From Lachnospiraceae bacterium (lineage in GTDB: Bacteria; Bacillota; Clostridia; Lachnospirales; Lachnospiraceae): a DNA stretch of 38,687 nt. Both the position numbers and the translations under genes were made by a program. The stretch is from contig JAILAD010000010.1 of assembly GCA_024681795.1 (NCBI GenBank), forward strand, positions 1 to 38,687, in the 5' to 3' direction. The notes under the pieces are model-generated. The model searched no databases. It worked only from the letters and a program-made list of their open reading frames with translations, and was not told where the DNA came from. Below are positions 10,956 to 28,066 of this stretch, piece after piece (position 1 is the stretch's first letter; each line of letters begins with the position of its first letter).

Positions 10956-11017
10956 GGGGACAGTCCCCGCTGCACACCCCGGGGACAGTCCCCGCAGGAA
11001 CATATGGGGACAGTCCC
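10956..11017. repeat. Family 1 palindromic repeat array, three copies
   Basis: GGGGACAGTCCC starts at 10956, 10981 and 11006, an exact 25-bp period. The 13-base spacers differ. The array sits between the stop of the giant gene and its terminator, so it is probably transcribed in the 3' untranslated region. Confidence 0.9.
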
Positions 11018-11033
11018 TGATTAAAAATTATTA

Positions 11034-11067
11034 AAAAAAGCTTACAGCGTCTGCTGTAAGCTTTTTT
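11034..11067. terminator. Bidirectional terminator between convergent genes
   Basis: A perfect 15-bp stem has an A-run on the left, a T-run on the right and loop GTCT. It can stop transcription from both the giant gene and the converging HPr-like gene. Confidence 0.92.
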
Positions 11068-11089
11068 GCATCTGTCAAATCAAACCGGA

Positions 11090-11320
11090 TTATACGATAT
11101 AAGGAGCAAGAACCTTCATTACTTCTTCGTCTCCGTCTTCTGCATGGATGTTTAAATCAATCGGTTTGGATAAATCCAGACTGAAAATACCCATGATGGA
11201 CTTTGCATCGATAACATATCTTCCGGATACAAGGTCAAAGTCATAATCAAATTTCGTGATATCATTTACGAATGATTTAACTTTATCAATTGAATTCAAA
11301 GAAATCTGTACAGTTTTCAT
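11090..11320 (-). CDS. HPr/Crh-like PTS regulatory protein
   Basis: The 76-residue protein aligns with HPr along its length. It keeps the Ser-46 region as KSIMG (Ser-41 here), the site phosphorylated by HPr kinase in Gram-positive bacteria. The segment where HPr has GIHARPA is replaced by a sequence without His, so PTS phosphotransfer through His-15 is not expected. This recalls Crh, which also lacks His-15. I chose the second of two nearby ATGs: GGAGG is 8 bases from it, but only 2 bases from the ATG at 11326. The gene stands alone, converging on the giant gene and diverging from mtaB. A regulatory role in carbon metabolism is likely but inferred. Confidence 0.8.
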   Translation of the reverse strand: MKTVQISLNSIDKVKSFVNDITKFDYDFDLVSGRYVIDAKSIMGIFSLDLSKPIDLNIHAEDGDEEVMKVLAPYIV

Positions 11321-11360
11321 ATACATTTCCTCCTTGTGATTTTCTTAGGTTTCGCTTATC

Positions 11361-11389
11361 ATACTAAAGGAATGGCAATAAAAAGTCAA
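11361..11389 (-). promoter_or_regulatory. Promoter for the HPr-like gene
   Basis: On the minus strand TTGACT (11389-11384) and TAGTAT (11366-11361) are 17 bases apart, a good sigma-A-type pair. An overlapping TATGAT would give a 20-base spacer and is less likely. Confidence 0.6.
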
Positions 11390-11422
11390 TCATAAAAACC
11401 ACCAAAAAAATCGGAGAATTCT

Positions 11423-13018
11423 ATGAAATCAGTAGCATTCCACAACCTCGGCTGTAAGGTAAATTCCTATGAACTCGATCTTATGAAGGAAAACGTCTTA
11501 AAAAACGGATGGCAGATTGTTCCGTTTGACGAAAATGCCGATGTATATATCATAAATACCTGTTCCGTTACCAACATCGCGGACCGGAAAAGCCGTCAGA
11601 TGATTCACCGTGCAAAGACGCTGAATCCGGCTGCTATCGTGGTTGCGGCAGGCTGCTATGTGCAGTCGGATGCGTTCGCCCTGTCCCGGGACGAAAGTGT
11701 CGATCTTTTAGTCGGAAATAATAAAAAATCACAGCTTTCCGAAATTCTTGATGAATACTTATGTGCAAGAAATGCGGGTACCCTTTCTCTCTATGCGGAC
11801 AGGATTCTGGGAAATGCAGAGGGAGCACCGGGTAAAACAGAAAAGCAGGGCGAAACAGGTATCACGGACAAATCGGAAACCCGGGACAATATGAAACTTC
11901 CGAACGGCGATGACATCTCCGGAAGCGAGAAAGAGGTTCGCATATATCTTGAAAAAACACTCGGAAACACAACGGTTCTTGATTTAAAGAACGTTTCGTT
12001 TGAAGAAGGAAATATTGTAAAAACCGATAGTCACACCAGAGCCTATATTAAGATTCAGGACGGATGCGACCGTTACTGCAGCTACTGCATCATTCCCTAC
12101 ACCAGAGGCAATGTACGTTCCAAACCGATTGAAGAAGTTGTGGAAGAAGCGGAGCATCTGGTTGGTTCGGGTGTTCGTGAAATTGTGCTTACGGGTATTC
12201 ATGTAAGTTCGTACGGCGTGGATTTTGCGGAATACCGGAAAGACGCAGAGGCGCGTGAAGAAGATGCGCGAATTGTTAAAACCGTTGCCGAAATCCGTGA
12301 GCGGAAATCCGCAATTTCCCGAAAAGCACTTTTATCCCTGTTAGAGAAACTGCAGGAAATAAAAGGTCTTGAAAGAATTCGTTTAAGTTCCTTCGAACCG
12401 CTTTTGATTTCGGAAGATTTTATGAAAGGACTTGGACGGATTTCCAAGATATGCCCGCATTTTCATCTGTCGCTTCAAAGCGGCTGCGATGAGACGCTGA
12501 AGCGGATGAACAGAAGATACACGACGGCGGAATACGCCGAAAAGGTAGCGTTAATCAGGAGTGTCTTTCCGGATGCCGCCGTTACAACGGATATTATCGT
12601 GGGATTCCCGGAGGAAACCGAGAAGGAATTTTCCGAAACCGTTTCGTTTGCAAAAGAAATCGGATTTTATGAAATCCATGTCTTTAAATATTCCAGAAGA
12701 AAAGGTACGCCGGCCGATGCCAATCCGGACCAGGTTCCGGAACAGGTGAAAAATACCAGATCCGACACATTGCTCGAACTGACGGCGAAGCAGTCCAAAG
12801 ACTTCCGCAGACGTTTTCGGAACAGGGAAGTGGAAGTGTTATTTGAGGAAGAGAAGGAAATCGCAGGCAGAAAATACTGGCTCGGCCATACACGCGAATA
12901 TGTCCTGGTGGCGATTTTCTCCCCGGAAAATCTGGAAAACAGGATCATGAAAGTGGAGACGGGGGATTTTATAAGAGACGATGTACTTCTTGCGCACAGC
13001 AGCGTGAGCGCGTTATAG
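11423..13018 (+). CDS. mtaB: tRNA t6A37 methylthiotransferase MtaB
   Basis: This radical-SAM enzyme of the MiaB/MtaB family converts t6A37 to ms2t6A37 in tRNAs reading ANN codons. The N-terminal UPF0004-type domain carries the three conserved cysteines (C11 in LGCKVN, C47 in NTCSVT, C78 in AAGCYV). The radical SAM cluster is C215, C219 and C222 in GCDRYCSYC, followed by a typical IVLTGIH segment and a C-terminal TRAM-like region. The opening LGCKVNSYE favours MtaB over MiaB or RimO. At 531 residues it is longer than the usual ~430-450. The excess is a hydrophilic stretch at about 130-175 and a charged Glu/Arg/Lys segment at about 265-300. The ribosome site CGGAG lies 6 bases before the start. 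Confidence 0.9.
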   Translation: MKSVAFHNLGCKVNSYELDLMKENVLKNGWQIVPFDENADVYIINTCSVTNIADRKSRQMIHRAKTLNPAAIVVAAGCYVQSDAFALSRDESVDLLVGNNKKSQLSEILDEYLCARNAGTLSLYADRILGNAEGAPGKTEKQGETGITDKSETRDNMKLPNGDDISGSEKEVRIYLEKTLGNTTVLDLKNVSFEEGNIVKTDSHTRAYIKIQDGCDRYCSYCIIPYTRGNVRSKPIEEVVEEAEHLVGSGVREIVLTGIHVSSYGVDFAEYRKDAEAREEDARIVKTVAEIRERKSAISRKALLSLLEKLQEIKGLERIRLSSFEPLLISEDFMKGLGRISKICPHFHLSLQSGCDETLKRMNRRYTTAEYAEKVALIRSVFPDAAVTTDIIVGFPEETEKEFSETVSFAKEIGFYEIHVFKYSRRKGTPADANPDQVPEQVKNTRSDTLLELTAKQSKDFRRRFRNREVEVLFEEEKEIAGRKYWLGHTREYVLVAIFSPENLENRIMKVETGDFIRDDVLLAHSSVSAL

Positions 13019-13098
13019 AAGAATTCGAAAAAATATGTTATAATATTCAGATGGGGGGAACGGAAGTCCTTCACATTACAGGAAAAGGAGGAATTCTT

Positions 13099-13689
13099 AT
13101 GGGTTTATTTGATTCTATCAAAAATACGATCGGGCAGCAGGTTTCGAATGCTGCGGGAAATGCAGTGAATCAGGCGGTTAACGCGGCACAGAGAAAATCC
13201 GAGACCTTTACGTTTACGACGATTCCGAGAAATGTTGCGGAATTGCAGGCATTGCCGGAAAGTGATCTTTCCACGCCGTTTAAGACCTGTGCACTTACCA
13301 TGCTGGTACTTTTAAATTATGAGGAAAATACACAGGCGACGATTGACATGCTGAATTTTTTAAAGGGACCGGCACCGCTCAGCCCGTTTGAAATGCAGTT
13401 TTTAAAGGATCGTCTTGCGGGAAAAGGATATGTAGTCCGGTCATTTTTTAAGGGCTCGTCCCCTGCCAACAACTATATTCCTTCGGAACCGCTTGTAATC
13501 ACGGTTTATGACAATCCGTACAGCTATCCGGAAGCAGGATGGGCGACGCTCCATATGGATTCCACCGGTGCGGATTCACCGAGACAGATTAAGTGTCGGT
13601 TAAAACCCAGCACGAATCAGTGGTTTATGGTAGAGAATCTGGCGCTTTCCGATATTCGTATTCCGGTTGCGGCGGATCCCTGGGCATAA
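13099..13689 (+). CDS. Conserved protein of unknown function (DUF6935-like)
   Basis: The 196-residue protein starts with an amphipathic Gly/Ala/Asn/Gln-rich segment (MGLFDSIKNTIG, about 1-35), followed by a compact domain with LPESDLSTPF, a helical region and a WATLHMDSTGADSPR segment. It resembles a family found in Lachnospiraceae that I recall as DUF6935; this is unverified. An in-frame ATG at 13051 is rejected because AAGGAGG lies 7 bases before 13099. No signal peptide or membrane segment is seen. The function is unknown. Confidence 0.75.
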   Translation: MGLFDSIKNTIGQQVSNAAGNAVNQAVNAAQRKSETFTFTTIPRNVAELQALPESDLSTPFKTCALTMLVLLNYEENTQATIDMLNFLKGPAPLSPFEMQFLKDRLAGKGYVVRSFFKGSSPANNYIPSEPLVITVYDNPYSYPEAGWATLHMDSTGADSPRQIKCRLKPSTNQWFMVENLALSDIRIPVAADPWA

Positions 13690-13771
13690 GCATGTGAGAA
13701 TTTGCGCACGGATTTTTGAAAGAAAATTAATACCGGAAGAAAGAAATAATCCGGATTTTGGGAGTTAAAAA

Positions 13772-15025
13772 GTGAGAATCATCTTTTTCAGATGGGGCAA
13801 TAATGATGAAGATATTATAGTGAACACGTTACGAAAGCAGGGGCATTTTGTCGCTGCTTTTGATGCTGCAAATATGTGTTTCAGCGACGGAACTTCCAAT
13901 TTCGGTTCGAACAGTGACGTTTATGAACTTGAGAGCCTGGGAGGTCTTCAGGCTGACGAGATGGTGACGCGGCTTGTGAAGGAAGCATCGAATTTTCACG
14001 CGGAAGTCTTCTTTTCCATCGACTATTTTCAGTATATTTCCCTTGCTGCAAAGAAAGCCGGAATCTATTATTACTGTTGGGTTTATCATCTGCCGCAGTG
14101 GAATCTGTATTCCAACCAGGCGCAGTTTCCCTGTAATCGTTTCTTTACGTATGATCACGCGCATCTTAGGAATATGCTTCGAAACAATATCAAGAATGTG
14201 GAGTATCTTTCCCTGGCTGCGGACCGCAAACTTTTTACCGGTGCCAGCAACGGAATTTCCGGGAACATGCTGACAATGTACGTTTCGGAGGTTTCTTTTG
14301 TGGGAAACCTGTACGAAAGCAGCAGCAGTATTTTTAACCGGATTTCACCGGAAGACAAGCAAAATCCAGTCTATAAAAAGATTGTGAAAACCATCCGGAA
14401 GAAAATGTTTTCTTACGGAAGAAATGTTCTGGAGACGGACATTACACCTGATATCGTGGAATTTTTGATGAAGGAAATGGAGTCGGAGAAGTGGAATTAC
14501 TTCTTCGCCAGCCAGGAGGATATCGTCATTCATTCCGTGATTGCAAAGAAGATTACGGTTGAGGAACGGAAGAAGGTCATTCAGGAGCTTGCGGCCCGCT
14601 TCGATTTCCGGCTTTATACACAGTCCAACACGAAGAAGTATCCGGCGGTTAAAAACATGGGACCGGTGGATTTCAGAAAAACCGCGCCTTTGATTTTTCA
14701 CCAGTCGAAAGTCAATATCTATATTACACCGCGAACCATTGCGACCGGTATTCCGTTGAGGGTTCTGGAAATTATGTCCTGTCAGGGATTTGTTCTGACG
14801 AATTATCAGGAGGATCTGGCGGCGGAATTCGTGGAAGGAAAAGAAATCGTAATGTATCATTCGCTCGAGGAACTGCTTGAAAAGACAGCATATTATCTGG
14901 AGCATGAGGATGAGCGGCAGCAGATAGCGAGAGCGGGGTACGAGAAGGTACTTCGTGATTATAATTATGCAGTGAAACTGTCGGAGATTTTCACGAAGGA
15001 TTCGTGCGGCGGGTTCTTGATTTAG
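13772..15025 (+). CDS. CgeB-like glycosyltransferase
   Basis: The 417-residue protein has an N-terminal Rossmann-like half starting MRIIFFRWGNNDEDI and a C-terminal glycosyltransferase-group-1-like half. Around residues 325-345 TGIPLRVLEIMSCQGFVLTNY matches the nucleotide-sugar-binding end of CgeB-type (DUF3880 plus Glyco_trans_1_2) enzymes. CgeB relatives act on spore or cell-surface glycans; the acceptor here is unknown. The start is GTG, with GGGAG 7 bases upstream. A terminator follows directly. A second glycosyltransferase at 16176 suggests surface glycosylation nearby, perhaps of the large secreted proteins (inference). Confidence 0.8.
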   Translation: MRIIFFRWGNNDEDIIVNTLRKQGHFVAAFDAANMCFSDGTSNFGSNSDVYELESLGGLQADEMVTRLVKEASNFHAEVFFSIDYFQYISLAAKKAGIYYYCWVYHLPQWNLYSNQAQFPCNRFFTYDHAHLRNMLRNNIKNVEYLSLAADRKLFTGASNGISGNMLTMYVSEVSFVGNLYESSSSIFNRISPEDKQNPVYKKIVKTIRKKMFSYGRNVLETDITPDIVEFLMKEMESEKWNYFFASQEDIVIHSVIAKKITVEERKKVIQELAARFDFRLYTQSNTKKYPAVKNMGPVDFRKTAPLIFHQSKVNIYITPRTIATGIPLRVLEIMSCQGFVLTNYQEDLAAEFVEGKEIVMYHSLEELLEKTAYYLEHEDERQQIARAGYEKVLRDYNYAVKLSEIFTKDSCGGFLI

Positions 15026-15035
15026 TGGGGTTGTT

Positions 15036-15122
15036 GTAATGGTGTCAGGCACTTTAAAAGGCTTACCGGGAATGGTAAGCCTTTTTTGTTTGCAAATTTG
15101 TAATGGGGTCAGGCACTGTTAC
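15036..15122. repeat. Family 2 palindromic repeats, two copies
   Basis: The first copy starts at 15036 (GTAATGGTG TCAGG CAC) and its right arm is replaced by the terminator stem. The second copy, 15100-15122, is full length with a CACTGTTAC right arm. The terminator lies between them. Confidence 0.8.
15056..15087. terminator. Terminator after the CgeB-like gene
   Basis: A 12-bp stem (AAAAGGCTTACC with GGTAAGCCTTTT) and loop GGGAAT is followed by a T-run. The A-rich left side would also let it serve the convergent lipoprotein gene. Confidence 0.88.
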
Positions 15123-15132
15123 ACTGGTACCT

Positions 15133-16062
15133 TTAATATCCGTAAGAATTCGGACAGCTGGAACTGTCGTCGATGTTAATGCTACCGGATTCACGATGTA
15201 CCGAGTACCCGGAACCGGTATTGGTAATGGTGGAGCCGGATATGTTAAGAGATGCTTTCCCTTCGTTTTGCAGTACTGCCGGGTGGGTTAAGTCACCGCC
15301 GCCGGTGACGATACAGCCTGAAAGGGTTGCAGTACCGGAGTTTACAAATGCGATGATATCCGCCTCGCTTCTGATAATCGTGCATCCGGTAAGCGTCATG
15401 TTGCTCTGCCCGTTATTGCTGTTCCAGACACTGAAGGACGGGGTTGAATTTTCAAAGGTTACATTCGTTGCCGTAAGAGTTCCGTAGTTTACCAGAGATT
15501 TGGAATTCGTTCCGCTTCCGGAGGTATTTGTAACGGTTCCGTCTCCGACTATTTCCAGATTACCGCAGTTTACAATTGTATCGTTGCCTGCACCGTCTAA
15601 GGAAAAGCCGTTCAGGTGAAGTGTGATGTCGCTTCCGACCGGTGTGATACCGGAGCCTGTTAAATCTTTTGTAAGATGGACTTCCGCGTGGCTTCCTTCC
15701 GGAACTGCATTGAATGCCGACTGTAAATCATCAAAGCCGATTCCGTTAACGGTAACGGGGTGCCCGGTATAGGTAAAATCCAGGTCAACGGTTGTATTTT
15801 TGGTAAGAGGATCGGTTTTCAGAGTCCACGAATTGCAGTCCCAGGTTGCATTGGCTTTTTTGTTGGAACATTTAATTCCCTTAATTTCATAAAGCCCCTG
15901 AGGAGGAAGGTCTTCTGTTTTCTTTCCGTCAATGCTGTAATTTACTTTTAACTCCGGGTCGCCGCATGCCGTAAGGATAAAACAAAACAGCAGGGCAGTC
16001 AGCAGTATGGGCAGAGATTTTTTTATGCCGGACCCGATCCGGTTTTTTTTGTTTAAGTGCAT
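15133..16062 (-). CDS. Beta-helix lipoprotein
   Basis: The 309-residue protein starts with a lipoprotein signal peptide; the lipobox is LTAC with the lipidated Cys at residue 33. After a short all-beta segment, residues ~120-300 contain repeats such as LEIVGDGTVTNTSG, LTATNVTFENS and MTLTGCTIIRS, typical of a right-handed parallel beta-helix (pectate-lyase-like fold). No catalytic residues can be assigned, so it may bind or organise polysaccharide rather than cut it. AGGAG lies ~15 bases before ATG, longer than ideal. The gene points toward the CgeB-like glycosyltransferase and is downstream of the GT2 gene on the same strand, separated by family 2 repeats. Confidence 0.82.
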   Translation of the reverse strand: MHLNKKNRIGSGIKKSLPILLTALLFCFILTACGDPELKVNYSIDGKKTEDLPPQGLYEIKGIKCSNKKANATWDCNSWTLKTDPLTKNTTVDLDFTYTGHPVTVNGIGFDDLQSAFNAVPEGSHAEVHLTKDLTGSGITPVGSDITLHLNGFSLDGAGNDTIVNCGNLEIVGDGTVTNTSGSGTNSKSLVNYGTLTATNVTFENSTPSFSVWNSNNGQSNMTLTGCTIIRSEADIIAFVNSGTATLSGCIVTGGGDLTHPAVLQNEGKASLNISGSTITNTGSGYSVHRESGSINIDDSSSCPNSYGY

Positions 16063-16095
16063 TTTTATTTTTTTATTTCTCCTTTAGTGAGATGT

Positions 16096-16185
16096 TTAAT
16101 GGGGTCAGGCACCATTACACAGGTACATTTATTTTGTAACAATTTTGTAATGGGGTCAGGCACCATAACGATCGGTCAGGCACCA
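16096..16185. repeat. Family 2 repeats, two full and one degenerate copy
   Basis: Copies lie at 16096-16118 and 16147-16169, with a shorter core GGTCAGGCACCA at 16174-16185. The last runs into the 3' end of the GT2 gene on the minus strand and provides its stop codon. Confidence 0.85.
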
Positions 16186-17243
16186 ATTAACTCCAGGTAC
16201 TTCCTCGGCTTCGTATTCCCGGCAGCCGGATCGATGGTCGGCGAAGTATTGTTCATTGCGATATTCAGCCAGTTCTTCGCATATACATAATCCCCGAGTT
16301 CGTAATACGCGATGCCTACCTCCAGGCAGACTTCGGAACACGGACCGGTTATCATCGAAGTCATGGCAACCTCGTAAAGCGATTTCATATTTCCTTCGAC
16401 TCTGGCAATCTTCGCAAGTACGCAAAGCGCCTCACGGTACATATTCCACTCAGTGTTGGAGATATCCTCGGCAGGTGCATCATTGTCCGCACGCTGAACC
16501 TCCGTCTCCCAAAGTGTGGCTTTATCCTTTTTCTTACGGTTATTTAAATCATCATCCGAGGTGAGATTTAATGTGGTGGACTCCACAAAACCCAGGAAAT
16601 AATCCTTCGAGCGAAGGAGTTCCTCCTTGCTTCCGGTCATGTAAAGATCCCTTGCATAAAGCCCGTGAAGCTTCGGCGAGAGCGTGCCGCCGCGGTTTAT
16701 AACCTTCTCGTAAATTGCGCAGTCCCTGCCGATATGCGACTGGCTCGGAAGGTGGCGGATACAGATGTCGCTGTCAAAAACCGTCGGTTCAAGCCGCATG
16801 CTTTCATGTACCGGGTCAATCCAGGTCCAGCTGCGAAGCCTTTTGAAAAGCTTCGGCCGGTACTCCTTCTCAAAGCCGTTCGCCTCATTAAAATCAAGCG
16901 GCGTTAAGTACCACATTTTTACGATTTCGTATTTCGGATCGAGATACCCTTTCAGGACACGGAACTTCTCCATGTTTTCGGCATCGAGCACCTCGTCGGC
17001 GTCCACCGTATAGATATAGTCCTTCGTGCATTTGGAAAATGCAAAATTTCTTGCGGCCGCGAAATCGCTGACCCACTCAAAATCGTAGACATCATCGGTA
17101 TATTCCCAGGCAATATCCTTTGTTTTATCCGTGGAGCCGGTATCCACAATCACGAGTTCGTCGTAGAGTCCGGTCAGGGAATCAAGACAACGCCGTAAGA
17201 GTTTCTCTTCGTTTTTTACTATCATGCATACAGATATTTCCAT
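16176..17243 (-). CDS. Family 2 glycosyltransferase with TPR-like C-terminus
   Basis: The 355-residue protein begins ISVCMIVKNEEKLLRRCLDS, the hallmark of GT2 (GT-A fold) enzymes. VDTGSTDKT (33-41) and the metal-binding DAD (D81-D83) are present. The C-terminal part (~240-350) is helical, with TPR-like helices (VCLEVGIAYYELGDYVYAKNWL). Such enzymes transfer sugars to surface polysaccharides or proteins; donor and acceptor are unknown. The ribosome site is GAGGGGGG just upstream of ATG. The last residues, IGA, and the TGA stop are encoded by a family 2 repeat, so the original C-terminus may have been slightly different. Confidence 0.87.
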   Translation of the reverse strand: MEISVCMIVKNEEKLLRRCLDSLTGLYDELVIVDTGSTDKTKDIAWEYTDDVYDFEWVSDFAAARNFAFSKCTKDYIYTVDADEVLDAENMEKFRVLKGYLDPKYEIVKMWYLTPLDFNEANGFEKEYRPKLFKRLRSWTWIDPVHESMRLEPTVFDSDICIRHLPSQSHIGRDCAIYEKVINRGGTLSPKLHGLYARDLYMTGSKEELLRSKDYFLGFVESTTLNLTSDDDLNNRKKKDKATLWETEVQRADNDAPAEDISNTEWNMYREALCVLAKIARVEGNMKSLYEVAMTSMITGPCSEVCLEVGIAYYELGDYVYAKNWLNIAMNNTSPTIDPAAGNTKPRKYLELIGA

Positions 17244-17285
17244 GCCGTATCCCCCCTCTTTACTAAAAAATGTAACCCTGTAAAA

Positions 17286-17319
17286 ATTGTATCATTTTTT
17301 ATGCGAAAAAGAAAGTCAA
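17286..17319 (-). promoter_or_regulatory. Candidate promoter for the GT2 gene
   Basis: The minus strand has an extended -10 box TGATACAAT (17294-17286). A TTGACT (17319-17314) lies upstream at 22 bases, too far for a standard pair, so activity would rest on the extended -10 element. Confidence 0.4.
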
Positions 17320-17431
17320 GCCTATATTTTCCAAAGATTGTCCGATATAATATTAATGGGTGAAAATTGCGTGCGGCAGTGCCCGCTGCACCGGTAACCG
17401 GAGAAGAAAGAGAATTAACGGAGAATAAAAT

Positions 17432-20893: not shown

Positions 20894-20968
20894 GTTAACG
20901 GGGCTGTTAATGGGGCTGTTAATGGTGTCAGGTACCATTACAAAGTTAATGGGGTCAGGCACTGTTAC
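20894..20968. repeat. 12-bp tandem units running into family 2 repeats
   Basis: GTTAACGGGGCT (20894), GTTAATGGGGCT (20906) and GTTAATGGTGTC (20918) form three head-to-tail 12-bp units. The third is the left arm of a family 2 copy (20919-20941); another copy follows at 20946-20968. The first unit starts immediately after the dnaE stop codon. Confidence 0.8.
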
Positions 20969-20994
20969 ATTCGTGGAAAAAACGGAAGGCATGG

Positions 20995-21023
20995 TACACA
21001 AAATTAACGGAATATGGTATGAT
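20995..21023 (+). promoter_or_regulatory. Candidate promoter for pfkA
   Basis: TACACA and TATGAT are separated by 17 bases. The leader of ~115 bases before pfkA holds a small 6-bp hairpin (TGATGT and ACATCA, near 21040). Confidence 0.45.
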
Positions 21024-21146
21024 AAAAGGTGTTTTTTGATGTTTTACATCAGGAAATAAAGGGCACGGAACCCAAAACGTGTTTGAACAGTCAGAAATAT
21101 GAAGAGTGATGCCGGATTCATTTCGGTTTCAAAAAGGAGTTAAGTT

Positions 21147-22115
21147 ATGTCAGACCAGATTAAAACAATCGGCGTGCTTACAAGCGGCGGTGATGCACCG
21201 GGAATGAATGCCGCAATTCGTGCGGTTGTAAGAAAAGCACTCAGCAACGGTGTTTCGGTAAAGGGAATCAAGCGCGGATACGCCGGATTGCTTGCGGAAG
21301 AGATTTTTGAAATGGGCCGCAGAGACGTTTCCGATACCATCCAGCGCGGCGGTACGATTCTCGGAACCGCAAGATGTCTCGAATTCAAGGAAGAAGAAGT
21401 GCAGGCACAGGCAGCGGAAATCTGCAAAAAGCACGGAATCGACGGTATCGTCGTAATCGGCGGAGACGGTTCCTACAGAGGTGCGCAGGCACTTGCCCGC
21501 CACGGAATCAATACCATCGGAATTCCGGGAACGATAGATCTTGACATCGCCTGCTCCGACTATACCATTGGTTTTGATACTGCGGTAAATACCGCTATGC
21601 AGGCAATAGATAAGGTCCGGGATACATCTTCTTCCCATGAAAGATGCTCCATCATCGAGGTTATGGGGCGTAACGCCGGCTACATTGCACTCTGGTGCGG
21701 CATTGCAAACGGTGCGGAGGATATTTTACTTCCCGAGACGTATGACTATAACGAGCAGAATATCATCAACAACATTATCCAGAACCGTAAAAAGGGAAAG
21801 AAACATCACATTATTATAAATGCGGAAGGTATCGGCCATTCGACTTCGATGGCGCGTCGTATTGAGGCGGCAACCGGAATTGAGACGAGGGCTACCATTT
21901 TGGGATACATGCAGCGCGGCGGATCACCGACCTGCAAGGACCGCTACTATGCTTCCATCATGGGTGCGTATGCGGCTGATATTTTATGTGAAGGCAAGTC
22001 CAACCGTGTGGTTGCATACCGTCACGGCGAGTTTACGGACTTCGATATCGAGGAAGCATTAAATATGGAAAAGAAAATCCCCGAATATCAGTATCTTGTC
22101 AGCAAGACAATCTGA
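21147..22115 (+). CDS. pfkA: ATP-dependent 6-phosphofructokinase
   Basis: It phosphorylates fructose 6-phosphate to the 1,6-bisphosphate in glycolysis in the cytosol. The 322-residue length is typical. SGGDAPGMNAAIR (13-25), GGDGS (105-109), PGTID (127-131) and MGRNAGY (173-179) are the nucleotide- and substrate-binding motifs. GGDGS and PGTID, in place of GGDDS and PKTID, indicate ATP rather than pyrophosphate as phosphoryl donor. The family's usual TIDND is TIDLD here (L132), with both Asp residues kept. The ribosome site AAGGAG is 8 bases from ATG. The SpoU methyltransferase gene follows after ~70 bases. Confidence 0.95.
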   Translation: MSDQIKTIGVLTSGGDAPGMNAAIRAVVRKALSNGVSVKGIKRGYAGLLAEEIFEMGRRDVSDTIQRGGTILGTARCLEFKEEEVQAQAAEICKKHGIDGIVVIGGDGSYRGAQALARHGINTIGIPGTIDLDIACSDYTIGFDTAVNTAMQAIDKVRDTSSSHERCSIIEVMGRNAGYIALWCGIANGAEDILLPETYDYNEQNIINNIIQNRKKGKKHHIIINAEGIGHSTSMARRIEAATGIETRATILGYMQRGGSPTCKDRYYASIMGAYAADILCEGKSNRVVAYRHGEFTDFDIEEALNMEKKIPEYQYLVSKTI

Positions 22116-22187
22116 CCGGGTGGACCAGGGGGACGGGGTTGGTGGTTCATACTCCGCGAACCGGCAGACGGAAGAGGAAATTTGCAG

Positions 22188-23018
22188 ATGATTACATCCT
22201 TCAGCAACAGCAGAATTAAATTCATACGTGAACTGATGCTTCGCTCGAGAACCCGCAAGAAAGAGGGACTTTTTGTGGCGGAGGGCGTGAAGATGTTTCT
22301 GGAGGCTCCGGTTGAAGAGATTACGGAAGCTTACATTACCGAGCGTCTTTATACCAGACTCCGTTATGAAAAAGAGCTGCCGGGCAACTATGAAAAGTGC
22401 CGTGCAAAATTAAATGACGTTCCGTATGAAATTGTTTCGGACGAGATTTTTGCTAGAATCTCCGACACGGTTTCGCCGCAGGGTGTCATCAGCATTGTAA
22501 AGAAGCGGGAACGTTCGCTTGACGAGGTTCTGGGCGGCAGAAAAAATGCGCTTTACATTGTCCTTGAAAATCTTCAGGATCCCGGAAATCTTGGCACCAT
22601 CATGAGAACGGCGGAGGCTGCGGGTGTGGACAGCGTTATTTTGGGCGCAAATTGTGTGGATATGTACAATCCGAAGGTGGTCCGTTCCACAATGGGCGCA
22701 ATCTACAGAATGCCCTTTGCTTACGTGGAAAATGTCCGTGAGGCAATACATATCATGAAAGAGTCCGGAATTGAGACCTATGCCGCGACGCTCAGCGATA
22801 CGGCAAAGGCATACGACGAATATGATTATCATCCGGCGACGGCCTTTATAATAGGAAATGAAGGAAACGGGCTTACGGAGGAGGCAATCAGCCGGTCCGG
22901 AGCGCAGGTATATATTCCGATGCATGGAGAGGCGGAGTCTCTGAATGCTTCCATGGCGGCCGGGATTTTAATGTATGAGGCTTTCAGGCAGAGAAGAAAG
23001 CCGGAAATGCACAGATGA
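22188..23018 (+). CDS. SpoU/TrmH-family RNA 2'-O-methyltransferase
   Basis: This SAM-dependent enzyme methylates ribose 2'-OH groups in tRNA or rRNA. The N-terminal substrate-binding domain (about 1-95, with FVAEGVKMF) is followed by the SPOUT knot. Motif 1 is ENLQDPGNLGTIMRTA (about 127-142), motif 2 is VVRSTMGAIYRMP and motif 3 is IPMHGEAESLNASMAAG (about 243-259). The family includes RlmB, TrmH and TsnR; the exact target base cannot be told. A TTG at 22182 would add two residues; GAGG lies 10 bases before the ATG at 22188 and only 4 before the TTG, so I chose the ATG. Family 2 repeats separate it from proC. Confidence 0.88.
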   Translation: MITSFSNSRIKFIRELMLRSRTRKKEGLFVAEGVKMFLEAPVEEITEAYITERLYTRLRYEKELPGNYEKCRAKLNDVPYEIVSDEIFARISDTVSPQGVISIVKKRERSLDEVLGGRKNALYIVLENLQDPGNLGTIMRTAEAAGVDSVILGANCVDMYNPKVVRSTMGAIYRMPFAYVENVREAIHIMKESGIETYAATLSDTAKAYDEYDYHPATAFIIGNEGNGLTEEAISRSGAQVYIPMHGEAESLNASMAAGILMYEAFRQRRKPEMHR

Positions 23019-23038
23019 TGAAAATGACAGCAGAAAGT

Positions 23039-23089
23039 GTAATGGTGCCTGACCCCGTTACGAAATGTAATGGTGCCTGACCCCGTTAC
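23039..23089. repeat. Family 2 repeat pair before proC
   Basis: Two nearly identical 23-bp copies at 23039-23061 and 23067-23089 lie in the opposite orientation to the copies in the other three gaps (core TGCCTGACCCC). The second ends 5 bases before the AGGAGG of proC. Confidence 0.88.
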
Positions 23090-23106
23090 GATTTAGGAGG
23101 AAAAAA

Positions 23107-23901
23107 ATGAAAATAGGTTTTATCGGACTTGGAAATATGGCGAGAGCCATCATCGGCGGAATCATTGAAAAGGGCAATATCAAGCCCGGTGAAATTATCG
23201 GCTCCGATGTCTCTTTGGCAGCGGCGGAGAGTGCAAAAAAGGATTTTAAAATCAAAGTCTGCATGGAGAATGCCATGGTTGCGGAGCAGGCGGATGTTCT
23301 GATTCTTGCCGTAAAACCGCAGTATCTTGACTATTCGCTGGAAGGCGTGAAGCCCGTATTAAAGAAAGATGTCATCATTATATCCATTGTTGCAGGCAAG
23401 GATATCGCGTATCTGGAGGGATTGCTCGGCAAGACACACAGTATCGTCAGATGTATGCCGAATACGCCTGCATTAATCGGTGAGGCCTGTACGGCATTTA
23501 CGCCGAATGCAAAAGTAAGCGAGTCCCAGCTTGACATCGCGGCTGAACTGATCCGATGCTTCGGAAAGGCGATTCAGGTTCCCGAGTCCATGATGGATGC
23601 GGTAGTCGGCGTCAGCGGAAGCGCTCCGGCGTATGTATTTATGTTTATAGAAGCAATGGCTGACGGCGCAGTTGCGGAAGGCATGCCGAGAAAGATGGCA
23701 TATGAGTTTGCGGCGCAGGCAGTACTCGGAAGTGCGAAACTCATGATGGAAACCGGCAAACATCCCGGAGAACTTAAGGATATGGTATGTTCCCCGGCGG
23801 GCACCACGATTGAGGCCGTACGTGTTTTGGAGGAAGGCAATTTCAGGGCAACGGTTATGGATGCGGTAATCGAGTGTGCCGAGAAGTCAAAAATGCTGTA
23901 A
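23107..23901 (+). CDS. proC: Pyrroline-5-carboxylate reductase
   Basis: It catalyses the last step of proline synthesis, reducing pyrroline-5-carboxylate with NAD(P)H. The Rossmann N-terminus has GLGNMA (7-12). MPNTPALIGEA and the C-terminal dimerisation helix region with VSGSAPAYVFMFIEAMADGA and CSPAGTTIEAV are characteristic. The length of 264 residues is normal. A strong AGGAGG lies 6 bases before ATG, right after the family 2 repeats. No T-rich terminator follows directly; a hairpin and a terminator-like structure lie 130-220 bases on. Confidence 0.95.
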   Translation: MKIGFIGLGNMARAIIGGIIEKGNIKPGEIIGSDVSLAAAESAKKDFKIKVCMENAMVAEQADVLILAVKPQYLDYSLEGVKPVLKKDVIIISIVAGKDIAYLEGLLGKTHSIVRCMPNTPALIGEACTAFTPNAKVSESQLDIAAELIRCFGKAIQVPESMMDAVVGVSGSAPAYVFMFIEAMADGAVAEGMPRKMAYEFAAQAVLGSAKLMMETGKHPGELKDMVCSPAGTTIEAVRVLEEGNFRATVMDAVIECAEKSKML

Positions 23902-24030
23902 GACCGGAGCGTCCGGAAAAAACGACAAAGCTGAAAAAACCGGTTAAAAGTACAGAAATATCATGACGGAATGCCTGGAACGGGACAACTTATTGTGGAT
24001 TATATACAAAACAAGTGACGGATTTTCAGA

Positions 24031-24055
24031 TTGTTCCGTCATATCGACGGAACAA
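24031..24055. other. 10-bp inverted repeat, no T-run
   Basis: TTGTTCCGTC and GACGGAACAA flank ATATC. The stem is perfect, but neither side has a T-run, so it could be an operator or RNA hairpin rather than a standard terminator. Confidence 0.6.
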
Positions 24056-24082
24056 TAAAATAGAATAGTAAAAAAATGACAG

Positions 24083-24125
24083 ATACCATGTAAATTTTAA
24101 CTAATTTTTACATGGTATTTCTTTG
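24083..24125 (+). terminator. Terminator-like hairpin
   Basis: A 12-bp AT-rich stem (ATACCATGTAAA with TTTACATGGTAT) and a 12-base loop is followed by TTTCTTT. It may end proC transcription or insulate the next promoter. Confidence 0.6.
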
Positions 24126-24161
24126 TGTAAAGAGTAAAAATACTGATTTTTAGCGGAAAAT

Positions 24162-24190
24162 TTGACATTCCCCGGTTGATTTGATATTAT
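24162..24190 (+). promoter_or_regulatory. Strong sigma-A promoter for the wall hydrolase
   Basis: TTGACA (24162-24167), a 17-base spacer and TATTAT (24185-24190) form a near-consensus promoter about 75 bases before the start codon. Confidence 0.85.
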
Positions 24191-24195
24191 ACTTT

Positions 24196-24212
24196 TGTAA
24201 CAAAAATGTAAC
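24196..24212 (+). promoter_or_regulatory. Candidate WalR (YycF) binding site
   Basis: TGTAAC, AAAAA, TGTAAC fits the published WalR consensus of two TGT(A/T)A(A/T/C) hexamers with a 5-base gap. It lies across the expected transcription start, a position that would favour repression. The downstream gene is a cell wall hydrolase, the classic WalR target class. Confidence 0.65.
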
Positions 24213-24214
24213 AA

Positions 24215-24240
24215 TTTACATAATTTAGTAATTATGTAAA
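24215..24240 (+). promoter_or_regulatory. 11-bp inverted repeat in the 5' leader
   Basis: TTTACATAATT and AATTATGTAAA flank TAGT, giving a perfect 11-bp stem in the leader RNA, 12 bases before the TTGGAGG ribosome site. It may be an operator or an mRNA stabilising or translation-control hairpin. Confidence 0.65.
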
Positions 24241-24263
24241 GCAGATTTGTACTTGGAGGAATT

Positions 24264-25415
24264 ATGAAAACTGTATTGCGTAAACGGTTAGCCTCCGGAA
24301 GCATTGCTACAGTACTTGCATTTGCTACTGTTATTTCCGGCAATACCGCGATAGCAAAAGGGGATGCGGCATTTACATTATCCGCGGGATCTGCACTCGG
24401 AACCGTTTCCGAAGCGGACAGCATGGATTTTGTGGAAATGAATTTATCCGCGGGTGCATCGGGAATCGTTGAGATATCCTATCTTGATAATCCGCAGGAA
24501 ATGGATGAATACAAAGCAAAATATGAGGAAGAACTTCAGGCAGAGCGTAACGAACGTTACAAACTGGCGATGGCAAAAACCTCCGATTATGTAAATGTAA
24601 GAACCAATCCGGATACCGAGTCAGACCGTGTAGGTGTTATTTATAAAAATTGCGGCGGTCAGGTTCTTGAACGTGGCAACGGATGGACCAAGATTGAGTC
24701 CGGAGAAGTAGTCGGCTGGGTTTCCAACGATTACCTTTACTTAGATGAGAGCGCTGAAGAATATGCAGAGCAGGTTTGCAAGAAATATGCAAATGTCGAT
24801 ACACAGGCTCTTCGTGTTCGTACACAGCCCGGTGAGGATACCGAGATTATCGGTCTTTTGGAGGTTGGAACAGACCTTGAAACCATGGCTGATGATAATG
24901 AAGATGACGGATGGACCAAGGTTTTATATCAGGGTAAGGTTGGATATGTTTCTTCGGATTATATTACATTAAGTCTTGATATTCCGAGCGGTGAAACACT
25001 TGAAGAAATCGAGGAAAGAGAGCGACTTGCAGCTCTTGAGAAAGCAAAACTCGTTACCACATATTCTTCTGTTGAAGCAAATGTTGATGATACCACGCTT
25101 CTTGCTGCAATCATTCAGTGCGAGGCAGGCAACCAGTGTTATGAAGGAAAACTTGCAGTCGGCGCGGTTGTTTGCAACCGTATCAGAAGCGGAAGTTACC
25201 CGAATAATGTTCACGATGTGGTATACCAGCGCGGACAGTTTACTCCTGCAAGCAGCGGAATGTTAGCAAAGGCTCTGGCAAGCGGAATCAGTGATTCCTG
25301 CCGTCAGGCAGCAGCGGAAGCTCTTACCGGAGCAACGAATGTCGGTAATGCGTGCCATTTCAGAAGATCCGGTGGACGTGAAGGCGTTACAATCGGAGAT
25401 CATGTTTTCTACTAA
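24264..25415 (+). CDS. Secreted SleB/CwlJ-like cell wall hydrolase with SH3b domains
   Basis: The 383-residue protein has a signal peptide (about 1-32), a linker, two bacterial SH3 domains (about 105-160 with VNVRTNPDTESDRVG, and 175-235 with LRVRTQPGEDTEIIG) and a C-terminal Hydrolase_2 domain (about 275-383). The likely catalytic Glu is E287 in IIQCEAGNQ. Hydrolase_2 enzymes include SleB-type lytic transglycosylases acting on cortex or vegetative peptidoglycan; the SH3b domains suggest binding to wall peptides. GGAGG is 5 bases from ATG. The gene is monocistronic with its own strong promoter and terminator. The WalR-like site points to vegetative wall turnover rather than spore germination (inference). 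Confidence 0.9.
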   Translation: MKTVLRKRLASGSIATVLAFATVISGNTAIAKGDAAFTLSAGSALGTVSEADSMDFVEMNLSAGASGIVEISYLDNPQEMDEYKAKYEEELQAERNERYKLAMAKTSDYVNVRTNPDTESDRVGVIYKNCGGQVLERGNGWTKIESGEVVGWVSNDYLYLDESAEEYAEQVCKKYANVDTQALRVRTQPGEDTEIIGLLEVGTDLETMADDNEDDGWTKVLYQGKVGYVSSDYITLSLDIPSGETLEEIEERERLAALEKAKLVTTYSSVEANVDDTTLLAAIIQCEAGNQCYEGKLAVGAVVCNRIRSGSYPNNVHDVVYQRGQFTPASSGMLAKALASGISDSCRQAAAEALTGATNVGNACHFRRSGGREGVTIGDHVFY

Positions 25416-25440
25416 TTTAACCGGATATACGAAACTACAG

Positions 25441-25469
25441 CCCCTGCGGGATACCCGCAGGGGTTTTCC
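25441..25469 (+). terminator. Terminator after the wall hydrolase
   Basis: CCCCTGCGGG and CCCGCAGGGG form a 10-bp stem with loop ATA, followed by TTTTCCTT. Confidence 0.9.
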
Positions 25470-25485
25470 TTATGGTTCCCGGATC

Positions 25486-25572
25486 GGGGACAGTCCCCGT
25501 TGTGCCACTTGGGGACTGTCCCTCTTTCCCGTCTGGGGGACTGTCCCCATTGTTTTCACCGGGGACTGTCCC
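25486..25572. repeat. Family 1 array, four copies at 25 bp
   Basis: Cores start at 25486 (ACA form) and 25511, 25536 and 25561 (ACT form, the reverse complement). The period is exactly 25 in all three steps. The array lies between the hydrolase terminator and the argF promoter. Confidence 0.93.
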
Positions 25573-25589
25573 TGTAATAACGCAGGGGG

Positions 25590-25618
25590 TTACATCTGCC
25601 TCGTATTTATGATAAAAT
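25590..25618 (+). promoter_or_regulatory. Candidate promoter for argF
   Basis: TTACAT and TAAAAT are 17 bases apart, just after the family 1 array. The leader is short, about 30 bases. Confidence 0.5.
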
Positions 25619-25652
25619 CATGATATCTATTTACTTTAGGGAGGTAGGTTTT

Positions 25653-26660
25653 ATGGCAATCAGTTTAAAAGGAAGAGACTTCCTTACATTAAAGGATTAT
25701 ACAAAGGAAGAAATCGAATATCTGCTTGATCTGGCAGCGGAGTTGAAGGAAAAGAAGAAAAACGGTGTATTGACCAAAGATGCACTAATGGGAAAAAATA
25801 TCGCATTAATTTTTGAAAAAACGTCTACCAGAACCCGTTGTTCCTTTGAGGTTGCAGGACACGATCTCGGTATGGAGGTAACTTACCTCGATCCTGCGGG
25901 CAGCCAGATTGGAAAAAAGGAGTCAATTGCAGATACAGCAAGAGTTTTGAGCAGAATGTATGACGGTATCGAATATCGTGGCTATGGTCAAAGTATCGTA
26001 GAAGAATTGGCAAAATACTCCGATGTACCGGTTTGGAACGGATTAACCAATGAATACCACCCGACGCAGATGCTTGCAGATCTCCTTACCATCCGTGAAC
26101 AGCTCGGAAGATTGGAAGGGGTAAGATTAACTTATATGGGTGATGCCCGTTACAATATGGGAAATTCATTGATGATAGCATGCGCAAAAATGGGAATGCA
26201 TTTTACTGCGTGTGCTCCCAGGGCTTATTTCCCGAATAAAGAACTGATTGCACAGTGTGAAGAATATGCGGCGATTTCCGGCGCAACGCTTACTTTTGAA
26301 GAGGATGTGAAAAAGGGAACCGAGGGCGCGGATGTAATTTATACGGATATCTGGGTATCCATGGGAGAGCCGGATGAAGTATGGCAACAGCGTATTGATG
26401 CACTTCGCCCTTACTGTGTCACAATGGATGTTATGAAAAACGGCGCAGATGATGTGATTTTCTTACACTGTCTGCCTTCTTATCATGATCGCAACACCAC
26501 TATCGGAAAAGCGGTTGGCGAAAAATTCGGACTGATGGAACTTGAAGTTACCAATGAGGTATTTGAGTCCAAATACTCGAAAGTATTTGATGAGGCAGAG
26601 AACAGAATGCATACCATCAAGGCTATGATGGCAGCTACGCTCGGTGCATTCGAGAAATAA
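25653..26660 (+). CDS. argF: Ornithine carbamoyltransferase
   Basis: It joins carbamoyl phosphate and ornithine to citrulline in arginine synthesis. The carbamoyl-phosphate motif STRTR is at 58-62, HPTQ follows mid-protein, and the ornithine-loop HCLP is at 272-275. The 335-residue length is typical. An in-frame ATG at 25620 is rejected because AGGGAGG lies 8 bases before 25653. The anabolic (argF) or catabolic (arcB) role cannot be fixed from context; no other arginine gene is near. A family 1 pair follows the stop, with no separate terminator. Confidence 0.93.
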
Positions 26661-26671
26661 AAAATACCGGC

Positions 26672-26708
26672 GGGGACAGTCCCTGCATGAATCAATGGGG
26701 ACAGTCCC
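26672..26708. repeat. Family 1 pair after argF
   Basis: GGGGACAGTCCC starts at 26672 and 26697, 25 bp apart, 11 bases after the argF stop. Confidence 0.9.
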
Positions 26709-26743
26709 TTTAGTATATGAGTTGTGACGAAAAAGAGAGAAAA

Positions 26744-27091
26744 ATGGAAAAAGTAGTAATCTGTGGGGCAAATGCCTACGAGAAAAAGTATTATTTCAAT
26801 AAGGATTTCGACAAAATTCCGGAATCCATGCAGGATGAGTTGCATATCATCTGCGTTCTTTTTACGGAGGAAGCAGGTGGAATCTTTACTATCGGATTTG
26901 ATGAGGAAGGCGAACTGGTCATGGAAACCAATTCGGAAGAAGATGACATCTATTACGACGAAATTGCGGCGGGGATGCTGATTAAACAGATTCGTGACAA
27001 TCGTCAGGAAATGTTTGAGGCGCTGTCGTTATATTACAGAGCAATCATACTGAAAGAACCCATTAGCTCGCTGCTTGGTGACGAGAACTGA
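26744..27091 (+). CDS. Small conserved protein (DUF6145-like)
   Basis: The 115-residue acidic protein has no signal peptide or membrane segment. It begins MEKVVICGANAYEKKYYFN and resembles a small Lachnospiraceae family that I recall as DUF6145 (unverified). The start at 26744 has AGAGAG just upstream; an in-frame ATG at 26717 has no ribosome site. It lies between argF and coaX with family 1 repeats on both sides. The function is unknown. Confidence 0.7.
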   Translation: MEKVVICGANAYEKKYYFNKDFDKIPESMQDELHIICVLFTEEAGGIFTIGFDEEGELVMETNSEEDDIYYDEIAAGMLIKQIRDNRQEMFEALSLYYRAIILKEPISSLLGDEN

Positions 27092-27121
27092 TTTGACAGC
27101 GGTTTTGATTATGCAATCAAT

Positions 27122-27169
27122 GGGGACAGTCCCCGGTGAACGATTTGTGAACAACAAGGGGACTGTCCC
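27122..27169. repeat. Family 1 pair before coaX, 36-bp spacing
   Basis: An ACA-form core starts at 27122 and an ACT-form core at 27158. The 24-base spacer contains GTGAAC twice, as if the spacer part had been duplicated. Confidence 0.88.
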
Positions 27170-27194
27170 TCTTGAAAAGAATGGAGAATGAAAT

Positions 27195-27965
27195 ATGATT
27201 CTGTGTATTGATGTAGGGAATACAAATATTAATTTTGGTGTATACGAGAACGAAAAATTGCTCGTTATGTTTAAACTGACCTCGCAGGTTGCCCGGACCT
27301 CAGATGAGTTTGGACTTAGTATCAGTGAATTGCTTCGATTAAACAATATAGATAAGAATAAAGTTGCCGGAGTTTGTATAGCGAGTGTAGTTCCGAACGT
27401 GATGCATTCCTTAATAGCAGCTGTTGAAAGGTATTTGGGATGCAAACCGTTAATTGTGGGACCGGGAACAAAAACAGGAATCAAGATTAATACCGATAAT
27501 CCGCGTGAAATGGGAGCTGACCGTATTGTGGATGCAGTTGCTGCTTATCATAAATATGGCGGGCCTGTTCTGGTACTGGACTTCGGAACCGGTACTACAT
27601 ATGATCTGATAACTGCAGACGGAGCCATTGTTGCGGCCATCACAGCCCCGGGTATTCGTATTTCTGCAAAGGCACTTTGGGAGGATACTGCAAAACTTCC
27701 GGAAATTGAAATCAAAAAACCTGCGTCGATATTGGCAACAGAGACCGTGTCTTCCATGCAGGCAGGTTTAATATTCGGTCAAATCGGACAGACAGAATAC
27801 ATTATTGAAAAGGTAAAGGAAGAGAGCGGTATTTCGGATATGAAGGTTATTGCGACAGGTGGCCTTGGACGAATTATTAGTGAAGAAACAAAGAAAATTG
27901 ATGTTTATGATCAGTTCCTGACACTTGAAGGACTCAGACTGACTTACGAGAAAAACCGCAGATAG
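27195..27965 (+). CDS. coaX: Type III pantothenate kinase
   Basis: It phosphorylates pantothenate in the first step of coenzyme A synthesis. This acetate-kinase-fold enzyme has DVGNT (6-10) for phosphate binding, GADR (107-110) with D109 as the probable catalytic base, and DFGTGTT (129-135). The 256-residue length is typical. TGGAGA lies 10 bases before ATG. Family 1 repeats flank it, and dus follows in the same direction, a pairing I recall from clostridia. Confidence 0.94.
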
Positions 27966-27980
27966 AGACTATAAAAATGC

Positions 27981-28066
27981 GGGGACAGTCCCTGGGAAAC
28001 CCAAAGGGACAGTCCCTGTGAAAAACACCGGGGACTGTCCCCGCAGAAACCAAGGGGACTGTCCCC
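27981..28066. repeat. Family 1 array, four copies, between coaX and dus
   Basis: Cores begin at 27981 and 28005 (ACA) and 28030 and 28054 (ACT), with steps of 24, 25 and 24. The two halves are inverted, so the RNA could fold into a long double hairpin. The last copy ends 10 bases before the dus start codon. Confidence 0.9.

Follow-up and report, generated by a model that had tools for sequence, protein, structure and literature searches.

Phased arrays of a 13-bp palindrome in a Lachnospiraceae genome are very probably repetitive extragenic palindromes of a RAYT system

Repetitive extragenic palindromes (REPs) are accompanied by REP-associated tyrosine transposases (RAYTs), which are described as domesticated transposases whose exact function is unknown (PMC8049555). 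Within the portions of the literature cited here, RAYT homologs that satisfied the criteria of one study were detected solely in Gammaproteobacteria (PMC2817692) and RAYT biochemistry was done on GTAG repeats (PMC8266576). Where a species lacks GTAG repeats, its RAYT-like genes can have terminal repeats on their flanks, some of them carrying GGGGWSAS, and such genes and repeats have been called TIRtrons or TIRYT (Di Nocera, De Gregorio and Rocco 2013, PMC3733652); some TIR families are moderately abundant, occurring as dimers or clusters, in a limited number of genomes (PMC3733652). Firmicutes and Clostridium have 0 mentions in the main text of that paper. Here we analyse a 38,687-nt stretch of a Lachnospiraceae bacterium (contig JAILAD010000010.1, positions 1 to 38,687; the window), in which a 13-bp palindrome, GGGGACWGTCCCC with W at its centre, forms five arrays. 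The arrays are very probably REPs of a RAYT system, because the genome holds an estimated ~180 near-invariant copies of this core, a RAYT gene on contig C87 has cores upstream of it, the repeat and the RAYT co-occur in the genus, and the same design is found beside related RAYTs. A tiny mobile element, copied about by a transposase whose gene lies elsewhere in the genome, is the most likely origin of the short palindromes.

As in the classical GTAG systems (PMC2817692, PMC8266576), a Y1/HUH gene is found with inverted REPs that are high in copy number, extragenic and clustered, distinct RAYTs go with distinct REPs in one genome, and the fold matches 4er8. Unlike them, the present system has no conserved GTAG head, its fixed core of 12-13 nt lies between variable arms rather than as a head at the foot of a stem, and its RAYT has an extra C-terminal helical part. 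The likeness to TIRtrons is that RAYT-like genes are flanked by non-GTAG repeats and that the core of the own genome, GGGGACAG, fits GGGGWSAS; the commonest core of the relatives, GGGGACGG, however, breaks GGGGWSAS at position 7, the copies here number ~180 by estimate, and the core is set between self-complementary arms that vary by locus. REPINs are likewise non-autonomous, RAYT-linked and long persisting (PMC8049555), and a 62-bp two-core composite found here is comparable to them, but most steps here are direct units of 24-25 bp without a conserved spacer, whereas a REPIN is one conserved two-REP element. CGTC-tagged REPs are also short, palindromic and dispersed, and GGGGACG reads CGTCCCC on the opposite strand; in the cited portions of PMC3733652, however, no transposase is reported for them, the window core has WGTC, and their stem and tail design differs.

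A first-pass annotation of this DNA had suggested an undescribed dispersed regulatory or mobile repeat system. A dispersed mobile repeat is supported by a candidate transposase that is both adjacent to cores and co-occurring with them, but "undescribed" holds only partly, RAYT/REP systems and GGGGWSAS repeats being known (PMC3733652). What is added here is the occurrence across Clostridia, a core that stays fixed while its arms vary, matched pairs of RAYT and repeat in one strain, and palindromic arrays without arms. In a literature search by title and abstract, the letters of the core and its variants were not tied to bacterial repeats in any title, and among the papers listed none described RAYT-linked repeats in Clostridia by title; the RAYT survey of Bertels and others 2017 may hold an earlier mention. 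The terms RAYT and REP element do occur in two Geobacillus genome papers.

The window contains 15 sites (30 strand-hits), arranged as follows.

10956 to 11018, no strand assigned: array 1, three cores at 10956, 10981 and 11006 with 25-bp steps (25, 25), starting 8 bp past the stop of a 1739-aa open reading frame (ORF; 5728-10947).
25486 to 25573, no strand assigned: array 2, four cores at 25486, 25511, 25536 and 25561 with 25-bp steps (25, 25, 25), between a cell-wall hydrolase gene and an ornithine carbamoyltransferase gene.
26672 to 26709, no strand assigned: array 3, two cores at 26672 and 26697 with a 25-bp step, flanked by the ornithine carbamoyltransferase gene and a DUF6145 gene.
27122 to 27170, no strand assigned: array 4, two cores at 27122 and 27158 with a 36-bp step, between the DUF6145 gene and a type III pantothenate kinase gene.
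27981 to 28066, no strand assigned: array 5, four cores at 27981, 28005, 28030 and 28054 with steps of 24, 25 and 24 bp, between the pantothenate kinase gene and dusB.

Our recount agrees with the first-pass annotation on the 15 copies, the five intergenic arrays and the steps. On one point that annotation slips: the reverse complement of GGGGACAGTCCC is GGGACTGTCCCC, not GGGGACTGTCCC, and both are registers of GGGGACWGTCCCC. Read on the + strand, 14 of the 15 sites are exactly GGGGACWGTCCC, the exception at 28005 beginning with A (one mismatch); shuffled versions of the window gave 0.16 expected matches and a maximum of 3. All 15 sites are intergenic in a window with a coding fraction of 0.914, and they occupy five of its 21 gaps of more than 20 bp. 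By eye, a terminator-like hairpin with a T run is seen at 25440-25468, directly 5' of array 2, and another terminator-like hairpin follows array 1.

Across the own genome (G000), a search with a 12-mer of the core returned 130 forward and 140 reverse matches, with 0 on either strand for a reversed-pattern control; at 1.5 matches per site, this corresponds to an estimated ~180 sites. We sampled 97 of these in 106,110 bases comprising the window, 18 stretches around listed matches (contigs up to C54) and one stretch at the C87 transposase. Genes in the sample were predicted with a simple custom script, and 87 of the 97 sites are extragenic, only 10 falling inside predicted genes though 86% of the sampled bases are coding, a fraction that is local to regions picked around matches and the C87 gene. 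The sample has 56 steps no longer than 60 bp; 34 of these measure 24 or 25 bp, five 49 bp and three 36 bp. The first-pass annotation had named few copies, a lack of phasing or equal occurrence inside genes as results that would refute its claim, and none of these was seen: copies are many and, in the sample, mostly phased and mostly intergenic. Allowing up to two mismatches to the 13-mer gave 98 sites, all except one of which differ at the two end bases only, so decayed cores are rare. The 10 in-gene sites are mostly solitary copies (L084, L086, L087, L090, L091, L093, L094, L097, L101).

The sequence around the core is far less constant. A weak AC-core-GT flank is seen in G000, where most arms are gone and a few copies retain full arms (L096 is an example). 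Stems directly around the core were overall not commoner at 96 sites than with re-dealt arms; stems of at least 4 occur at five of the 96, about 1.3 being expected. GTAG or its complement lies within 12 nt of only three of 96 sampled sites, GTGG or its complement lies near 23 of 96, and flank base counts show no conserved GT(A/G)G head. Neighbouring spacers in own-genome arrays (16 pairs) are not complementary to one another (4.0 versus 4.76 permuted) but are similar (6.94 versus 5.05; 0 of 2000 permutations), a similarity that is weak once two near-identical arrays of locus L101 are removed (98 of 3000, 12 pairs). Five copies of a 62-bp composite of core, conserved 36-nt middle and core were found (L084 2873, L085 1034, L088 1012, L089 4304 and L095 2381); all five 49-bp steps are this one repeated composite, which suggests that two-core units also move.

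Three genes of the own genome encode Y1_Tnp proteins: a short IS200 type (C1), a 211-aa protein (C47) and a 249-aa protein (C87). Only that on C87 has cores in its fetched locus, four in number and all upstream, the nearest ending 45 bp ahead of the start codon; three more cores lie beyond the next gene downstream. Their orientation around the gene is unreadable because the core is palindromic. The C87 protein has a Y1/HUH domain (PF01797, E 1.2e-15) in which H60, H62 and Y118 are invariant in 14 and in 30 aligned relatives; Y118 we take to be the catalytic tyrosine. An AlphaFold2 model of the RAYT of the sister species G175 (predicted local distance difference test, pLDDT, 91.8) has as its best PDB match 4er8_A (E 1.8e-7), a RAYT bound to a REP hairpin. 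The RAYT here carries an extra C-terminal helical part, where a helix-turn-helix match is sub-threshold. The C87 system is of RAYT type by fold, flanking repeats and co-occurrence; we do not claim membership in the NCBIfam equivalog.

The repeat and this RAYT are distributed together. Among 31 genomes of the genus, core matches number 270 in G000 and 71 in G175, and 0 or 1 in each of the other 29. A C87-type RAYT is present only in G000 and G175, the two proteins being 69% identical; nine of the other genomes hold only RAYTs of 35-46% identity and 20 have no match at E up to 1e-10 (Fisher 0.002 for co-occurrence). DNA of the array-flanking genes is still matched in 27 of the 29 low-count genomes. 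At family level, two core patterns and the RAYT (called at E up to 1e-20) were looked for in 150 genomes, and a RAYT is found in 12 of the 15 genomes with at least 12 matches of either pattern, a threshold chosen after the counts were seen, versus 31 of 150 overall (Fisher 2.5e-7). The examined RAYT locus carries another core type in three of these 12 high-copy genomes (G015, G038 and G104), and in G128 the core falls inside the 3' end of the RAYT ORF.

The same arrangement of core and arms accompanies related RAYTs. Named genomes were scanned with the RAYT alignment and the best 80 loci of at least 582 relatives were analysed; these are partly dependent, L116 and L117 encoding identical proteins, L114 being the G175 gene and L148 the gene of G116. 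At 64 of the 80 loci GGGGAC is found in the 300 bp ahead of the gene or the 330 bp behind it, and at 48 it is found on both sides, the background in the same loci being 0.415 sites per 630 bp. By class, it is present at 54 of 60 loci in Clostridia, one of four in Bacilli and one of five in Coriobacteriia, and unnamed RAYT loci of the family and genus have it in 28 of 41 cases. The commonest core among the named loci is GGGGACGGTTCT, and where the nearest cores on the two sides are asymmetric and so reveal an orientation (43 loci), they face each other in inverted order at 36. Arms differ among loci and pair within a locus, with a mean longest helix of 5.1 versus 2.9 for re-dealt arms (0 of 1000; 64 loci, one core each). 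Core type tracks the RAYT tree (77 rows; 19 changes versus 25-28 in 300 shuffles). On this tree, a quick one with many weak forks, the palindromic WGTCC type turns up four times in separate positions, of which the G000/G175 pair is one. Strain AC2028 (G116) has two RAYTs, and the repeats closest to each are of a different core variant. The first has TGAGTCAC-core-GTGACTCA around GGGGACWGTCCCC on both sides of the gene; for the second, copies of GGGGACGGTTCC in GTGAAC-type arms lie 25 bp beyond the 3' end of the gene and ~300 bp ahead of its start. That genome contains 75 matches to the one core and 59 to the other.

In G175 the RAYT gene also has a core hairpin upstream, and in the 62 copies read the core is framed by arms, for the most part GTCRCCA and TGGYGAC; GGGACCA is a third type of arm. 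When the window is set against G175 contig C8, the same four of 17 comparable gaps hold cores and the other 13 are empty in both (Fisher 0.0004), with 4, 2, 2 and 4 cores per shared gap in G000 and 1, 1, 1 and 2 in G175. Because these four gaps lie side by side, shared inheritance is inseparable here from a shared insertion preference; the gap of array 1 is not comparable, as the gene upstream of it is unmatched on C8. By our reading, six G000 array places in L101 and L102 coincide with a G175 core or have one close by, the other arrays of these loci falling outside the aligned parts. One gap (L101 versus L247) has five cores upstream of a shared stretch in G000 and none there in G175, and one core downstream of it in G175 and none there in G000, a pattern that points most readily to separate insertions. 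In G120, G178, G152 and G159 the corresponding intergenic gaps that were printed are free of the core.

These observations are consistent with a mechanism in which the RAYT would bind a single-stranded hairpin formed by the core, around which the arms would pair in relatives, and the tyrosine of the RAYT would nick beside the core and join the strand elsewhere, so that copies would land between genes. We infer single-strand recognition, nicking and joining by analogy, cleavage and joining activities having been measured in vitro for the E. coli, Stenotrophomonas and Marinomonas RAYTs (PMC8266576, in its cited portions). After landing, some 25-bp units may multiply in tandem into phased arrays: identical or near-identical adjacent spacers in two arrays suggest growth by tandem duplication, a signal that is weak elsewhere. 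Spacers and arms would drift because only the core is read. Most G000 copies would have lost the arms that the sister species keeps, and the arm-less, self-palindromic core could still form a small hairpin or pair with a neighbour.

Several results weigh against this assignment. At the C87 gene itself, no core lies within 300 bp downstream, and its protein scores 68.1 bits, under the NCBIfam REP_Tyr_transpos cut-off of 80, whereas the second RAYT-like protein of the own genome (211 aa; gene at C47:18262-18702, L033) just reaches that cut-off with 80.1 bits, yet the 1.5 kb around its gene is free of such cores.

GGGGAC is missing at 16 of the 80 named and 13 of the 41 unnamed RAYT loci, and 19 of the 31 RAYT-bearing family genomes have fewer than 12 matches of either pattern. 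Conversely, G009 (122 GGGGACGGTTC matches) and G039 (21) lack a Y1_Tnp match in their assemblies and G034 (31 matches) has only a partial one; repeats can thus exist without a RAYT in the assembly. In G104 and G038 most of the GGGGACWGTCCC copies examined (16 regions) sit in a different, longer element, and the cores beside their examined RAYT loci (L049, L052) are of other types. Within G175, pairing or covariation of the arms does not exceed that of permuted arms (1188 of 5000). A counterpart of array 1 is missing there, C8 having no core near the HPr-like gene, though the gene on the array's other side is unmatched on C8, and deletions could also yield the L101/L247 pattern.

The longer element of G104 and G038 (L224-L239) has GCAAA/TTTGC-type arms, often a AATATTCTGAAAA-type flank, and is common to two genera. 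The GGGGACGGTTC copies of G009 (L240-L243, for example) have at least two arm types and may be orphan repeats or point to a missing gene.

Another reading is that the arrays act mainly as RNA, as hairpins 3' of genes that stop transcription or shield mRNA ends. Folded as DNA strands, four of the five arrays beat each of 200 shuffles (z -4.2 to -7.8), array 3 being weak (z -1.9, 8 of 200), and in four of five the first core lies no more than ~30 bp past a stop codon. Yet a scan of the window gave no Rfam match at gathering level, the terminator-like hairpins seen by eye are already in place after array 1 and before array 2, the same printed gaps of four relatives do without the core, and the link to the RAYT would be left unexplained. 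We regard this role as improbable and RNA stems as a plausible side effect of the arrays. A little less probable again is that the cores are operators of a DNA-binding regulator or nucleoid protein, whose tandem sites would act cooperatively on adjacent genes. At ~10.5 bp per helical turn of DNA, none of the steps (24-25, 36 and 49 bp) makes up a whole number of turns, although the core is palindromic, near-invariant and evenly spaced as an operator might be. Operators could also account for the 73 of 80 classified sites that lie between co-directional genes and for the four of 17 comparable gaps filled in both G000 and G175, but the functions of the neighbouring genes in the window are unrelated, 29 of the 31 genus genomes have 0-1 matches though 27 of these still match the DNA of these genes, and the core flanks RAYT genes across Clostridia. 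The regulatory part of the first-pass annotation therefore goes unsupported, given the non-helical steps, the near-absence of matches in those 29 genomes and the printed gaps of four relatives without core.

Least probable of all, in our judgement, is that another transposase (the C1 IS200 type, the C47 RAYT-like protein or an unseen element) spreads the cores and that the neighbourhood of the C87 gene is coincidental. The C47 protein is the best NCBIfam RAYT match in the genome, and the core family also occurs in genomes with no detected Y1_Tnp, but the fetched loci of C1 and C47 are both without core, G175 has one match to the C87 query, which is also core-adjacent, and two RAYTs with two matching cores are found in one strain (AC2028). 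A clustered regularly interspaced short palindromic repeat (CRISPR) array was considered as well and rejected on the architecture of the repeats: the core is 13 bp, spacers are mostly 11-12 nt and many small arrays are dispersed genome-wide, whereas CRISPRs are repeats of 24-48 bp with regularly sized unique spacers at one or more loci (PMC3733652, in the portions cited).

Returning to the reading of the arrays as REPs of a RAYT system, a wider proposal can be put forward tentatively, at somewhat short of even chances. GGGGAC-core repeats may form a third large REP superfamily beside the GTAG and CGTC ones, as their Clostridia counterpart, in which every type would have a RAYT of its own, bearing a C-terminal helical domain, and with the recognised core at the apex between freely evolving arms, which would reverse the classical design. 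The core would have become palindromic several times independently, and that of G000 would have shed its arms and persisted as a 13-bp minimal element in phased arrays. A second repeat class of another build, whose RAYTs match it and occur as a pair in one strain, would offer a clean natural test of what a RAYT reads, and many of the intergenic repeats of Clostridia, a large class, would be accounted for. With the same gaps filled in two species, the core kept and the arms and spacing changed, long-term maintenance of a repeat becomes testable.

Two further observations concern gaps in relatives. In G174 (L066) the gap matching array 4, before the pantothenate kinase gene, contains different hairpins with TGACAC/GTGTCA-type arms, one of them around GTCCCCGTCCCC, that are related to the core hairpin. 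In G175 a core hairpin (L247 4909) lies between a promoter-like stretch and a gene start, where it may alter expression.

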